Position numbers and translations under genes: made by a program. A DNA stretch of 26,461 nt. Source: a virus. The notes beneath the pieces were generated by a model, which did no database searches, was not told where the DNA came from, and was given only the letters and a program-made list of their open reading frames with translations. Positions within the stretch are counted from its first letter, which is position 1, and each line of letters opens with the position of its first letter. Shown one piece after another: positions 17,115 through 25,904 of the stretch. The stretch covers positions 1-26,461 of the IMG/VR virus record IMGVR_UViG_3300008259_000384, one strand, 5' to 3'.

Positions 17115-17570
17115 ATGCAACAACCCTGGTTTTATAAAAACAAAGAGGTCCATACTATAGAAGACCTTCCAGATCATGAGAACATCCACGGGTTTGTATA
17201 TCTGATACAAGATACAATTACATACAAATTCTACGTAGGTAAAAAGGTCCTGCGTAATGTTCGTAAAACAAAAATCTCACAGCGTTTAAAGAAAGCTACT
17301 AAGACCCGTAAAACATATCAGCGGACTATAAAAGAGTCTGACTGGAAAGATTATCATGGCTCTTGTAAAGAACTACAAGATGACATACAGAAGTATGGTA
17401 AGCAAAGATTTAAACGCACAATACTAGAACTCTGCTGCACAAAGAAATATTTAAGCTTCTGTGAGATTAAGTGGCAGATTAAACTAGAAGTATTAAATGG
17501 CGGAAGCTATAACGGAAACATCCTGGGCCGTTACTATATCCGGGATATGCAAAACTGTTTTAAATCATGA
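17115..17570 (+). CDS. SegE-like GIY-YIG endonuclease domain protein
   Basis: Encodes 151 residues. GFVYLI (26-31) and YVGKK (40-44) are the GIY and YIG strands; ESDWKDYHGSCKELQDDI (74-91) and the end SYNGNILGRYYIRD follow the SegE-like GIY-YIG family. E117 in SFCEIKWQ is the candidate metal-binding Glu. These enzymes nick or cut DNA; phage members act as homing nucleases or degrade host DNA. No intron or split gene is visible beside it, so homing is not evident. A palindromic promoter precedes it and the next gene overlaps by ATGA. Confidence 0.75.
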   Translation: MQQPWFYKNKEVHTIEDLPDHENIHGFVYLIQDTITYKFYVGKKVLRNVRKTKISQRLKKATKTRKTYQRTIKESDWKDYHGSCKELQDDIQKYGKQRFKRTILELCCTKKYLSFCEIKWQIKLEVLNGGSYNGNILGRYYIRDMQNCFKS

Positions 17571-20470: not shown

Positions 20471-22408
20471 ATGAGTAACCAACAGACACACTGGGTGATG
20501 GACTACGAAACACTTTGCAATTGTTTTGTAGCAGTCTTCCAACACTATAAAGATGAAGGTGTCAGACACATATTCATCATACACAAAGACCGAAATGACT
20601 TTACAAAGTTTGTAAACTTCTTAAAATCTTGTGTAAAGAATAAACAGTACCACATCTCATACAACGGTCTGGCATTTGACGCTCAGATCACGCAGTGGAT
20701 AATAGAGAATCATCAAACATTATCTACTAAGAGTACAGAAGATATCGTAAAAGGTATCTATGACTTTGCACAGAAAACAATATCTCGTACAGACAGAGGA
20801 GAATTCCAAGAATATCCACCTTTTAAGTTAAGGATTAAGCAGATTGACTTGTTTAAGATGAACCACTGGGACAACCGTGCCAAGATGAGTTCTCTTAAAT
20901 GGATACAGTATTCCATGGACTGGGATAATGTAGAAGAGATGCCACATCCCCATCATGCCCCTATTGAAGATGATGTACAACTTAAGAGTTTAGTATCCTA
21001 TTGTATTAATGATGTACTATCTACTAAAAAAATATTACACCACAGCAAAGAACAGTTAGTACTAAGACAGAATCTAACCAGAGAATATGGTATAGATCTG
21101 TATAGTGCATCTGAACCCAGGATATCAAAAGAACTATTCTTGCACTTCCTGCATCAAAAGTTAGGCTGGGAAAAAGCAGAGATAAAACAACTGCGTACTC
21201 CTAGACCATATATTATTTTAGCAGACTGTATACTACCATATATACAGTTTAAAACACCAGAATTTCAAAGTGTACTTGAGTATTTTAGAAAGAAGGTAAT
21301 TACATCTACAAAAGACGGGTTTAAGCACAGCGTCACATATCGTGGAGTACAAACTGACTACGGTCTGGGCGGTATTCACGGTGCTACAGACGCAGGTGTT
21401 TATGAAGCTAAACCTGGATGGACCATCATGACCTCAGACGTTACTAGTTTCTATCCAAACCTTGCTATCAAAAATGGTTTTCATCCTGAGCACTTACCTG
21501 CAAAAGAGTTTGGTGAGCTCTATGAATGGTTCTTTGAAGAACGTAAGAAGATTCCTAAGTCTGATCCTAAGAACTATGTCTACAAGATTATCCTGAACTC
21601 TACCTACGGCCTTACAGGTGATGAGAACTCTTTCCTGTATGACCCACGCATGACTATGCAGATTACTATCAACGGACAACTAAGTCTTAGTATGCTTTAT
21701 GAGATGATCTGTGAGGAGATTCCTGAAGCTGTACCGCTCATGCAGAACACAGACGGTCTAGAAACTATGATCCCCACATCTGCTGTAGAAAAGTATATGA
21801 ATATCTGCACCAGATGGGAAATGATGACTAAACTGTCCTTGGAGCATGATCAGTATAAGAAGATGATCATGCGAGACGTCAATAACTACATTGCTATCAA
21901 CAAAGATGATAAAGTAAAATGTAAAGGTGCCTTTGAGTGGGAAGATCTAGACAAAAAGAAAGTAGCTGTATTTCATAAGAATAAAAGCTTTCTAATAATC
22001 CCCAAGGCTATCTATGCATACTTTGTAAATGGTACTAAGCCAGAAACATTTCTAGCACAGAATACAGAAATAACTGATTACTGTGCAGGAGTAAAAGCTA
22101 AATCCGGCTGGTACTTTGAGGAGCAATACATTGACAGCGGTCAGTTAATAGTAAACCGTCTACAAAAGATCGTAAGATATTACGTATCCAATACAGGATC
22201 TAAACTAGTAAAGTGCCATAAAGATGGCCGGGTAATCCAAGCAGAAGCAGGACAGTGGCTACAAACTGTAGTCAACTCCATAGACAAGAACAAGTCTTTT
22301 CAGGATTATGACATTAACCTGCAGTACTATCTAGAAGAGATATATAAACAGATAGAGCAGATAGAAAGAATTAAACCTAAATCATTTACACAACTATCAC
22401 TTTTTTAA
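20471..22408 (+). CDS. Family B DNA polymerase with 3'-5' exonuclease
   Basis: Encodes 645 residues. Exonuclease motifs: Exo I DYET (D11, E13), Exo II NGLAFD (65-70), Exo III YCIND (Y177, D181). Polymerase motifs: A is SDVTSFYP (322-329, D323), B is KIILNSTYG (372-380), and C is QNTDGLE (about 425-431, D428). In most family B enzymes motif C reads DTD; here the first Asp is Asn. At 645 residues it is shorter than cellular B-family enzymes, and no terminal-protein gene was seen, so protein priming is not indicated. It would copy the phage genome with the helicase, primase and SSB-like protein. Confidence 0.88.
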   Translation: MSNQQTHWVMDYETLCNCFVAVFQHYKDEGVRHIFIIHKDRNDFTKFVNFLKSCVKNKQYHISYNGLAFDAQITQWIIENHQTLSTKSTEDIVKGIYDFAQKTISRTDRGEFQEYPPFKLRIKQIDLFKMNHWDNRAKMSSLKWIQYSMDWDNVEEMPHPHHAPIEDDVQLKSLVSYCINDVLSTKKILHHSKEQLVLRQNLTREYGIDLYSASEPRISKELFLHFLHQKLGWEKAEIKQLRTPRPYIILADCILPYIQFKTPEFQSVLEYFRKKVITSTKDGFKHSVTYRGVQTDYGLGGIHGATDAGVYEAKPGWTIMTSDVTSFYPNLAIKNGFHPEHLPAKEFGELYEWFFEERKKIPKSDPKNYVYKIILNSTYGLTGDENSFLYDPRMTMQITINGQLSLSMLYEMICEEIPEAVPLMQNTDGLETMIPTSAVEKYMNICTRWEMMTKLSLEHDQYKKMIMRDVNNYIAINKDDKVKCKGAFEWEDLDKKKVAVFHKNKSFLIIPKAIYAYFVNGTKPETFLAQNTEITDYCAGVKAKSGWYFEEQYIDSGQLIVNRLQKIVRYYVSNTGSKLVKCHKDGRVIQAEAGQWLQTVVNSIDKNKSFQDYDINLQYYLEEIYKQIEQIERIKPKSFTQLSLF

Positions 22409-23324: not shown

Positions 23325-23618
23325 ATGTCTGACTTACAGTTAATAAACGCCAGAGAAATGGCAATCAAACATCCTTCTACATTTAATGCTCCTTGTGAAG
23401 ACTGTCTTAATGATATTAATGAAGGTGACTATGTTAAGATATGTCCAGGAGAAGAAAGGTTCTGGTGTAATGTAATAACAGTAGATAAAGATAACCGTAG
23501 CATTACAGCCTCAGTATCTAACAGACTTATCTATTATGATCTGCCGGTAGGTACCGTTCTAGAAATAGGCTATGATAATGTATACGATATTCTCAAACCT
23601 GAAGATATGAACTTATGA
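23325..23618 (+). CDS. Small Cys-containing protein of unknown function
   Basis: Encodes 97 residues from ATG 23325. An in-frame GTG at 23289 lies inside the hairpin and is rejected as a start; TTAAATC seven bases before ATG fits the local pattern. Cys residues at 24, 27, 40 and 48 (PCEDC, ICPG, WCN) could bind zinc. The rest is beta-rich (VITVDKDNRSITASVSNRL). It overlaps the dNMP kinase gene by 4 bases (ATGA). Confidence 0.65.
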   Translation: MSDLQLINAREMAIKHPSTFNAPCEDCLNDINEGDYVKICPGEERFWCNVITVDKDNRSITASVSNRLIYYDLPVGTVLEIGYDNVYDILKPEDMNL

Positions 23619-24298
23619 TAATAGGAATCAATGGATACTCTGGTACCGGTAAAGACACAGTCGGTAAACTTATACAGCTTGCAGCTACAGATACCATACC
23701 TGAAGGCTATGATGTCTACGATATAGTAGATAATTACCCAGACCACCAATGGTGGCTGGAAGAAAAGTCTGGATGGGAAATAAAAAAATGGGCTGGTAAG
23801 CTCAAGACTATAGCTAGTGTTCTTACAGGTATAGAGACTGAAAAGTTTGAAGACCAAGAGTTTAAGACAAAAGCTCTTGGTAGAGAATGGTGTTATCCTA
23901 CTGAATGGCAAGGTAGAGAACACTGGGTAGAAATGACAGTAAGAGAATTTTTACAGCGTCTAGGTACTGACGGCCTACGTACAGGTCTTCATGAAAACAC
24001 CTGGGTAAATGCTCTTATGGCAGACTACGAAGGTACCTATGACTTGGATACTGACCGTACAACTTACCCTAACTGGATCATTACAGACACCCGTTTTCCT
24101 AATGAAGCTGAGGCTATCAAAAATGCGGGTGGTATAGTAATCCGGATAGATCGCCCAGGAGTTACTGCAGTAAATGCACATCCTTCTGAGACAGCTTTAG
24201 ACAACTGGAAGTTTGATCATAAGATTATGAACGGATCTGATCTGACTAGTCTATTATTTTCAGTTGGCAATCTATTAAGAAAAGAAAAACTGATATGA
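23615..24298 (+). CDS. Deoxynucleoside monophosphate kinase
   Basis: Encodes 227 residues. The P-loop is GYSGTGKDT (7-15), followed by WAGKLKTIAS and VREFLQRLGTDGLR as in T4 gp1-type dNMP kinases, then WIITDTRFPNEAEAI (binding region) and the typical late motif SETALDNWKFDHKIMNGS. These enzymes phosphorylate dNMPs to dNDPs for phage DNA synthesis, sometimes including modified bases. It overlaps both neighbouring genes by 4 bases, so it belongs to a coupled unit with the radical-SAM gene. Confidence 0.85.
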   Translation: MIIGINGYSGTGKDTVGKLIQLAATDTIPEGYDVYDIVDNYPDHQWWLEEKSGWEIKKWAGKLKTIASVLTGIETEKFEDQEFKTKALGREWCYPTEWQGREHWVEMTVREFLQRLGTDGLRTGLHENTWVNALMADYEGTYDLDTDRTTYPNWIITDTRFPNEAEAIKNAGGIVIRIDRPGVTAVNAHPSETALDNWKFDHKIMNGSDLTSLLFSVGNLLRKEKLI

Positions 24299-25149
24299 GA
24301 ATAATTAAACAACAAACCAAAACCCTGATAACCCGTGACAATGGACGGAGTTCGGATGCAGTAGCACCGAACTTCATCTACGGGTGTTTGGGAGGATGTA
24401 TGAGCTCCTACTGCTATGTAGGACGCTATAATCATGACAGAGTATACGTCAATGAAAACATGGATGATTTACTCATGTCTGTACATGGCTGGATTAGTAA
24501 ACAGCCCTGGCCTAAAGAACCAAATCAGTGTGACCCAAAGTACTACGTCATAGACATTGGATGCTCTACAGATATCCCACTCATGCGTAAGCATTATAAC
24601 TGGCAGGAAGTCTTTGACTACTTCAGTTACAAAGACGGTATGGCTAAGAGCACATTTGCCACTAAGTATCCTACTATGTTCTTGCCGATGAAGTACAACC
24701 TGGAAAAAGAAAAACACCGTATCAGGGTAAGCCTGATGCCTCAGAAATACTCTGACATCCTGGAGCCAGGGACAGACAAAATCTCTGATCGCATAGCTGA
24801 GATACCAAAGCTGATGGAATATATGGAAGTACACATCAACTTTTCTCCTATCATCTACACTGACGACTGGTTAGAAGAGTATAAGAAACTCTTTAAAGAA
24901 ATCCGATCTGCCGGCATAGATACTAAATGTGAGTGTATCTTTTTAACACACAATATTCATCAGCACGAGCGTAACTCTAAGCCTGTTCAGGATCTCCTGT
25001 GGCGTCCAGATATCCAAGAGAAAAAAGACTCTCAGTACGCTCCTGATAATATCAGGTATCAGTTTCAACTGAAACGCCAAATGATACAAGAGTTTACTCA
25101 CCTGTATGCAGATTACTTTAATCCCTCTGGTATCCGTTACATCTTTTAA
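24295..25149 (+). CDS. Radical-SAM protein related to spore photoproduct lyase
   Basis: Encodes 284 residues. Near the N-terminus YGCLGGCMSSYCYVGRY has Cys31, Cys35 and Cys40, a CX3CX4C pattern; most radical-SAM enzymes have CX3CX2C. The rest follows the spore photoproduct lyase order: IDIGCSTDIPL, TKYPTMF, RIRVSLMPQ, RIAEIPKLMEYMEVHINFSPIIY and WLEEYKKLF. Spore photoproduct lyase uses SAM radical chemistry to repair thymine dimers in DNA, so DNA repair or base modification is a reasonable guess. Whether the altered cluster spacing holds a 4Fe-4S cluster is not known. The gene is coupled by ATGA to the dNMP kinase gene. Confidence 0.75.
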   Translation: MRIIKQQTKTLITRDNGRSSDAVAPNFIYGCLGGCMSSYCYVGRYNHDRVYVNENMDDLLMSVHGWISKQPWPKEPNQCDPKYYVIDIGCSTDIPLMRKHYNWQEVFDYFSYKDGMAKSTFATKYPTMFLPMKYNLEKEKHRIRVSLMPQKYSDILEPGTDKISDRIAEIPKLMEYMEVHINFSPIIYTDDWLEEYKKLFKEIRSAGIDTKCECIFLTHNIHQHERNSKPVQDLLWRPDIQEKKDSQYAPDNIRYQFQLKRQMIQEFTHLYADYFNPSGIRYIF

Positions 25150-25152
25150 CCT

Positions 25153-25371
25153 ATGGCACAGACAGCATTAGATTGGTTTCTCTCTAGAGTTAATAAAACT
25201 AGCTACGATAAGATCAATGAGCTTATAGAGCAAGCTAAACAACTAGAAAAAGAGCAGCGTATACAAGACTATAATGCTGGATATACCGATGCTCAGTGTA
25301 ACCATATCAATGATGCTGAGAATTATCTTAATGAAATAACCTATATGACCGATGAAAATACTACACATTAG
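25153..25371 (+). CDS. Small phage protein of unknown function
   Basis: Encodes 72 residues, mainly helical and charged (ELIEQAKQLEKEQRIQDYN). It starts 3 bases after the radical-SAM stop, and the ATG of the metallophosphoesterase N-terminal part lies inside its last codons. Short acidic helical proteins of this kind are common among phage genes; no role is known. Confidence 0.6.
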   Translation: MAQTALDWFLSRVNKTSYDKINELIEQAKQLEKEQRIQDYNAGYTDAQCNHINDAENYLNEITYMTDENTTH

Positions 25372-25904
25372 TGACACTCATGGCTACCATGGTACTTTCC
25401 CTGAAAGTAGGTTTGAAAGTATGGATGTAGTAGTGCATAGCGGTGACTGCTCCAACTATAGAGACTCCTATAGAAACAGTAATGAAGTACTTGACTTTAT
25501 TAGATGGAGTCAAGTTCTGGGGTAGTCCTATCACTCCTACATTTTGTGACTGGTCTTTTATGAAAGCCAGGGATAAGACCTATAAAGTATGGGCACAGAT
25601 CCCTGATGATACAGATGTACTAGTAGTCCATGGACCTCCCAAGGGAGTCCGGGACTTAAGCTTTGACAGACAGGGTAACCTAGAAATGTGCGGAGACCTA
25701 GCTCTTATGAAAAGATGCTATGCACTAAAGGATACACTAAAGCTAGTATGCTTTGGGCACATCCATAACATGGACGGTGTAGATACTAACCAAGGAGTAT
25801 CTCACTATTCCCGTACAAAGACGGTCTTCTCTAATGCAGCCTGTGTTTATGACGGACGCTTTGACCTTGGACTTACATCACACGGAAACATTTTAGAACT
25901 ATGA
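25352..25904 (+). pseudogene. Metallophosphoesterase split by out-of-frame internal deletion
   Basis: Frame one (ATG 25352, TAG 25523-25525, 57 residues) is a typical N-terminus: ISDTHG (6-11), VVVHSGDCS and NSNEVLDFIRW. The other frame then carries the C-terminal half to TGA 25904: LLDGVKFWGSPITPTF, VLVVHGPPKG and VCFGHIHN. The two parts share the bases near 25490-25515. The central GNH(E/D) metal motif expected between them is absent, so a piece whose length is 3n+2 bases appears missing. The C-terminal part alone could start at ATG 25482 or GTG 25443. Most likely a natural deletion or an assembly error; without the GNH motif the enzyme should be inactive as a calcineurin-like phosphoesterase. 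Confidence 0.75.

Follow-up and report, generated by a model that had tools for sequence, protein, structure and literature searches.

A CX3CX4C branch of spore photoproduct lyase-like radical-SAM proteins in phages and bacterial chromosomes, with a probable role in the repair of UV lesions

The stretch of DNA analysed here (hereafter the window) is a 26,461-base IMG/VR virus record that carries a gene for a radical-SAM protein resembling spore photoproduct lyase (SPL). On the 5' side of this gene lies a replication module comprising a DnaB-type helicase, a primase, a PD-(D/E)XK nuclease, a DNA polymerase and a deoxynucleoside monophosphate (dNMP) kinase. The genes of immediate interest are:

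20471-22408 (+): DNA polymerase, part of the same replication module (PHROG 1252, 7.9e-143)
23615-24298 (+): dNMP kinase (PHROG 139, 1.6e-40; Pfam DNMK, 3e-14; synteny)
24295-25149 (+): SPL-like radical-SAM protein of the CX3CX4C branch, 284 residues

The start ATG of the SPL-like frame overlaps the stop codon of the kinase (ATGA at 24295-24298). The replication module also harbours an ORF for a SegE-like GIY-YIG endonuclease (17115-17570, +).

Radical-SAM enzymes are usually recognised by the motif CX3CX2C. In the window protein the motif reads NFIYG-C31-LGG-C35-MSSY-C40-Y41 (Cys codons at 24385-24387, 24397-24399 and 24412-24414), so that the preliminary description was right in reporting a CX3CX4C spacing, a Ser at position 38 and the sequence SYCY around Cys40. 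Its idea that the third Cys is displaced by a two-residue insert is borne out by the alignment, which places the extra residues at positions 36-37, between Cys35 and the Ser/Thr-Tyr-Cys that follows. The motif and the other residues discussed below are:

24385-24417 (+): cluster motif C31-LGG-C35-MSSY-C40-Y41; Cys31, Cys35 and Cys40 invariant in 72/72 clade members
24400-24405 (+): M36-S37, the two residues inserted relative to CX3CX2C homologues (alignments)
24409-24411 (+): Tyr39, equivalent by alignment of Bacillus subtilis SPL Tyr97 (PMC3742179)
24415-24417 (+): Tyr41, equivalent by alignment of B. subtilis SPL Tyr99, radical relay (PMC3742179)
24562-24564 (+): Cys90, equivalent by alignment of B. 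subtilis SPL Cys141, H-atom donor (PMC3742179)
24934-24936 (+): Cys214, found in 68/72 members and mostly confined to the CX3CX4C clade (clade alignment)

Relatives were gathered by scanning viral sequences twice and by searching for one exact pattern. The CX3CX4C spacing is common to the 184 loci fetched, and 118 contigs match one exact pattern, which rules out a sequencing artefact. Far above chance, it is shared by every one of the 72 non-redundant clade members (66 from phages, 6 from bacterial chromosomes); Cys40 is thus conserved throughout, none of the close homologues has the normal spacing, and the window copy is not a mutated exception. All viral homologues of at least 55% identity, stop-bearing copies excepted, follow the pattern C-[L/A/N/C]-G-G-C-[M/L]-x-[S/T]-Y-C-Y. 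CX3CX2C, on the other hand, is found in all viral homologues of about 41-44% identity, in all plasmid-borne bacterial homologues, in Bacteroidota relatives of 36-41% identity (bacterial genome scan), and likewise in the sister phage clade, in actinobacterial and Deinococcus homologues and in SplB. The isolate phage records in the collection gave no match to the window protein.

The earlier assignment to an SPL-like radical-SAM protein stands: the Pfam SPL domain is matched at 46.6 bits against a gathering score of 27 (3e-12), and TIGR03886 at 205.8 bits (1e-60). The latter score lies well below the equivalog cut-off of 437.55, which 0 of 26 relatives reach, and TIGR04070 is missed by far (41.8 bits vs. 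an equivalog cut-off of 400). Neither the window protein nor any of the 72 clade members has the CX3CX2C spacing by which SPL is defined. An AlphaFold2 model built from a 91-row alignment is confident overall (pLDDT 93, pTM 0.91), with the motif loop among its least certain parts (pLDDT 73-77). By both structural aligners, Geobacillus SPL structures head the matches to this predicted model and are the sole high ones, with Z 27.0 and an rmsd of 2.3 A across 267 residues; the next-best family is RlmN (Z 14). A family profile run against the PDB retrieves SPL 4fhc at 2e-21; phmmer with the single window protein gave no match there. The match to SPL begins at about SPL residue 61, the N-terminal 60 or so residues of SPL being absent. 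The predicted fold is therefore that of the SPL catalytic domain, and from the three invariant cysteines together with the SPL barrel we infer membership of the radical-SAM superfamily and, with it, cluster binding and SAM cleavage.

In Bacillus SPL, experiments identify C141 as the H-atom donor, its replacement in C141A giving TpTSO2- as product, and place Y97 and Y99 in a radical relay (PMC3742179). Their counterparts Cys90, Tyr39 and Tyr41 are each present in 72/72 members of the CX3CX4C clade. Outside the clade, Cys90 is kept by 12 of the 13 CX3CX2C phages sampled and by the Bacteroidota homologues in the sample, but the nine actinobacterial, Deinococcus, cyanobacterial and Methylobacterium proteins sampled all have Glu at position 90. 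At the donor Cys, the phage protein thus resembles true SPL more than the Glu-bearing TIGR03886 proteins do, and because Glu replaces the H-donor Cys in the latter, the name 'spore photoproduct lyase family' may cover enzymes of two different chemistries. Positions specific to the CX3CX4C clade include 46, 53, 91-92 (S-T vs. N-S/T-S, beside the donor Cys) and 214.

In a tree built by a 'quick' method with the motif columns removed and no bootstrap, all CX3CX4C rows (69 phage, including three stop-bearing ones, and 6 bacterial) form one clade with an SH-aLRT of 97. The distinct branch suspected in the preliminary description is therefore real, and since one change suffices for a single clade, the two-residue insert arose once on this topology. 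The branch is, however, not confined to phages as had been supposed. Chromosomal CX3CX4C copies of 45-49% identity, with the motif C-[L/A]-G-G-C-R-[N/D]-[S/T]-Y-C-Y, were retrieved by an alignment scan of bacterial genomes (a single-protein scan found none) from Lewinella, Neolewinella, Cesiribacter and Odyssella and from MAGs labelled Paracaedibacteraceae, Rickettsiaceae and 'Burkholderiales'; chromosomes of the Rickettsiales/Holosporales type are among the carriers. Among the neighbourhoods read, the chromosomal gene stands alone. A further homologue of the clade, in Rickettsia tamurae (L276, 4001-4856), has a frameshifted N-terminus and a Tyr in place of Cys90, and looks like a pseudogene. 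On the 3' side of the chromosomal gene in Neolewinella maritima (L212, 5256-8806) regular repeats (translated QSNYRWKMARR) alternate with variable spacers; this is probably a CRISPR array.

We consider it probable (roughly 60%) that the window protein is an SPL-type radical-SAM enzyme for the light-independent, direct reversal of dithymine UV lesions in phage DNA; cluster binding, SAM cleavage, substrate and biological role are here taken over from SPL by analogy. Cys31, Cys35 and Cys40 would hold one [4Fe-4S] cluster. The insert would lengthen the loop from the second ligand to the third and leave all three ligands in place. The cluster would cleave SAM to a 5'-deoxyadenosyl radical, which would abstract a hydrogen from a dithymine photoproduct (spore photoproduct or a close relative), whereupon the thymine-thymine bond would break, Cys90 would donate a hydrogen back, and Tyr41/Tyr39 would hand back the radical so that SAM is regenerated. 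Expressed alongside the replication genes, the enzyme would allow the phage to repair its own DNA. The CX3CX4C enzyme would then probably work like SPL, yet it fails two tests that define SPL, motif spacing and equivalog score. It also counts against this reading that phage DNA is not known to carry spore photoproduct as a major lesion, and a search of the open-licence literature for spore photoproduct in phage particles found nothing relevant. The repair role is made plausible by a Curtobacterium TIGR03886 homologue that is induced by UVC (PMC12029717) and by the homologues carried by Deinococcus gobiensis and D. deserti (PMC3314630).

Gene content was surveyed in 26 phage records of relatives, of 47-362 kb, which may be incomplete. 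Each of the 26 holds exactly one SPL copy, and neither photolyase nor T4 endonuclease V occurs in any of them (0/26 each). The thymidylate-synthase family (PF00303) is absent from 25 of the 26, some of which may be fragments (the window's own record has 26 kb), and the sole gene of this family sits in the 362-kb record. With due regard to possible incompleteness, these counts favour repair over base modification. The preliminary description had offered both; with the SPL catalytic Cys and Tyr pair kept as well, base modification finds no support and DNA repair is the likely role.

The strongest rival, rather unlikely in our judgement, is an SPL-fold enzyme acting on a different lesion (another dimer, an adduct or a crosslink) or on RNA, the altered loop and the C-S-T-D second shell reflecting a changed substrate. 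Positions 46, 53, 91-92 and 214, being specific to the clade, speak for it, and the taxa of the bacterial members are not known to form endospores; every known SPL catalytic residue is nevertheless kept, and the gene neighbourhood gives no hint of another substrate. A DNA base-modification or nucleotide-level enzyme partnered with the adjacent dNMP kinase is improbable. The gene order, with the kinase before the SPL-like gene and the ATGA overlap in the window, had suggested such a coupling, and among 59 related loci 38 have a kinase close to the gene. Most of these are close relatives, however, and more distant phages have no kinase nearby, so that the coupling comes down to synteny among related phages; the thymidylate-synthase family is all but missing (25/26 records), the chromosomal copies stand alone in the neighbourhoods read, and the repair residues are intact. 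It is very improbable that the branch has degenerated into non-enzymatic proteins, with the change in the loop tolerated once function was lost. The apparent R. tamurae pseudogene and the stops within the motif in three phage lineages speak for this reading, but the cluster cysteines, C90, Y39, Y41 and some 30 more positions are invariant in 72 divergent members.

The stops just mentioned lie in frame directly after Cys31-Leu32, in four contigs from three phage lineages. The loci are:

L061, 4977-5676: SPL-like locus with CTT-TGA-CTT, shared by L061/L151 and L181 (near-identical phages)
L188, 10760-11546 (-): SPL-like locus with CTT-TAG-CTC
L101: SPL-like locus with TTG-TGA-CGTG, 7 nt and out of frame

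Directly upstream in L061/L181 and L188 is an HNH/NUMOD endonuclease ORF (HNH_3/NUMOD4/NUMOD1); L101 has no adjacent endonuclease, and L056, 97.7% identical to L061, lacks both endonuclease and stop. The endonuclease of L061 opens at the codon where the SPL-like gene natively starts, and that of L188 is fused behind native codons 1-27. Both phages then repeat the 5' end of the SPL-like gene, and the start codon of this second copy overlaps the stop codon of the endonuclease (TTATGA). At the DNA level, stop-bearing genes are 86-89% identical to one another in their 5' segments but 58-62% in the adjoining bodies; between L061 and L056 the values are 74% for the 5' segment and 97% for the body. 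This pattern suggests that the 5' segment travels as a cassette. Searches by insertion pattern and by endonuclease found no further cassettes.

Since TGA and TAG terminate ordinary genes in the stop-bearing phages, an alternative genetic code is ruled out. The 5' segments show a dN/dS of about 0.12-0.2, of the changes between the L061 and L056 bodies 6 are synonymous and 1 is not, and the L188 body ranks first of the 26 records by TIGR03886 score, all of which suggests that these genes are still translated through. Tentatively, a mobile homing-endonuclease cassette that targets the cluster motif could have rebuilt the 5' end with a stop between Leu codons (L061, L188) over which ribosomes hop, restoring C-L-G-G-C; we regard this as possible but less likely than not. 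The rival is that the cassette knocked the gene out, and the L061 stop may simply be recent. By sequence reasoning, a prfB-like +1 frameshift would leave L061 and L188 out of frame; in L101 it would bring the frame back, with poor re-pairing, and L101 does not, on its sequence, fit a simple hop. The RNA flanking the stop has unremarkable predicted structure in L061 and L188 (z about -0.1 and -0.3) and reaches z -2.0 in L101.

The synthetic 'stop hop' geometry comprises nine nucleotides with matching codons flanking the stop, and Atkins et al. (2016) knew of no natural in-frame stop hop (PMC5009743). The bypass gap of T4 gene 60 is linked to a homing endonuclease (PMC5009743; PMC2988022). As in T4 gene 60/MobA, a homing endonuclease here sits beside a gene interrupted at a stop between matching codons; unlike there, the geometry is that of a 6-nt 'stop hop' and not of a 50-nt gap, and the bypass is a candidate one. 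If hopping does take place, the stop of L061/L188 would be a natural 'stop hop' of the kind that the 2016 review did not know. The motif stops in three related lineages offer a simple system in which to look for it.

Among known systems, SplB (PF20903, TIGR04070; PDB 4fhc-4fhg, 4k9r, 4rh0) shares with the window protein the predicted fold over residues 1-284, the equivalents of Cys141, Tyr97 and Tyr99, the three cluster cysteines, T123-K124, R142/R144/S146 and other positions. It differs in having CX3CX2C, the N-terminal 60 or so residues and a link to sporulation, and identity is about 20%. The closest named family by score (1e-60) is TIGR03886, 'spore photoproduct lyase family protein' (Deinococcus, Curtobacterium, Methylobacterium, Streptomyces), which has R18-S19, E213, Q241-E242 and a C-terminal RY region in common with the window protein; its members are nonetheless CX3CX2C proteins with Glu at the donor-Cys position in 9/9 cases vs. 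0/72 in the clade, and the window protein scores below its cut-off. ThiC (CX2CX4C) likewise departs from the CX3CX2C spacing, but with a non-canonical active-site architecture (PMC4389238), whereas the window protein keeps the SPL barrel and lengthens the second interval only. No description of a CX3CX4C radical-SAM enzyme was found in the open-licence literature. That a CX3CX4C branch is both fixed and widespread while keeping the SPL fold suggests that a canonical barrel can accommodate a longer cluster loop, and such enzymes can escape motif searches.

The window further encodes a large phage protein (7029-8930, -) whose C-terminus is a sorting domain of type IX secretion (Por_Secre_tail, 1.9e-06), suggestive of a host among the Bacteroidota. 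Direct-reversal UV repair may be carried by many uncultured phages, whose hosts are probably Bacteroidota. Downstream of the SPL-like gene, a metallophosphoesterase-like gene (25352-25904, +) is apparently split: its ORF starts at 25352 (MKILHISDTHG...) and stops at about 25525, and the remaining domain lies in another frame (ORF listed from 25443).
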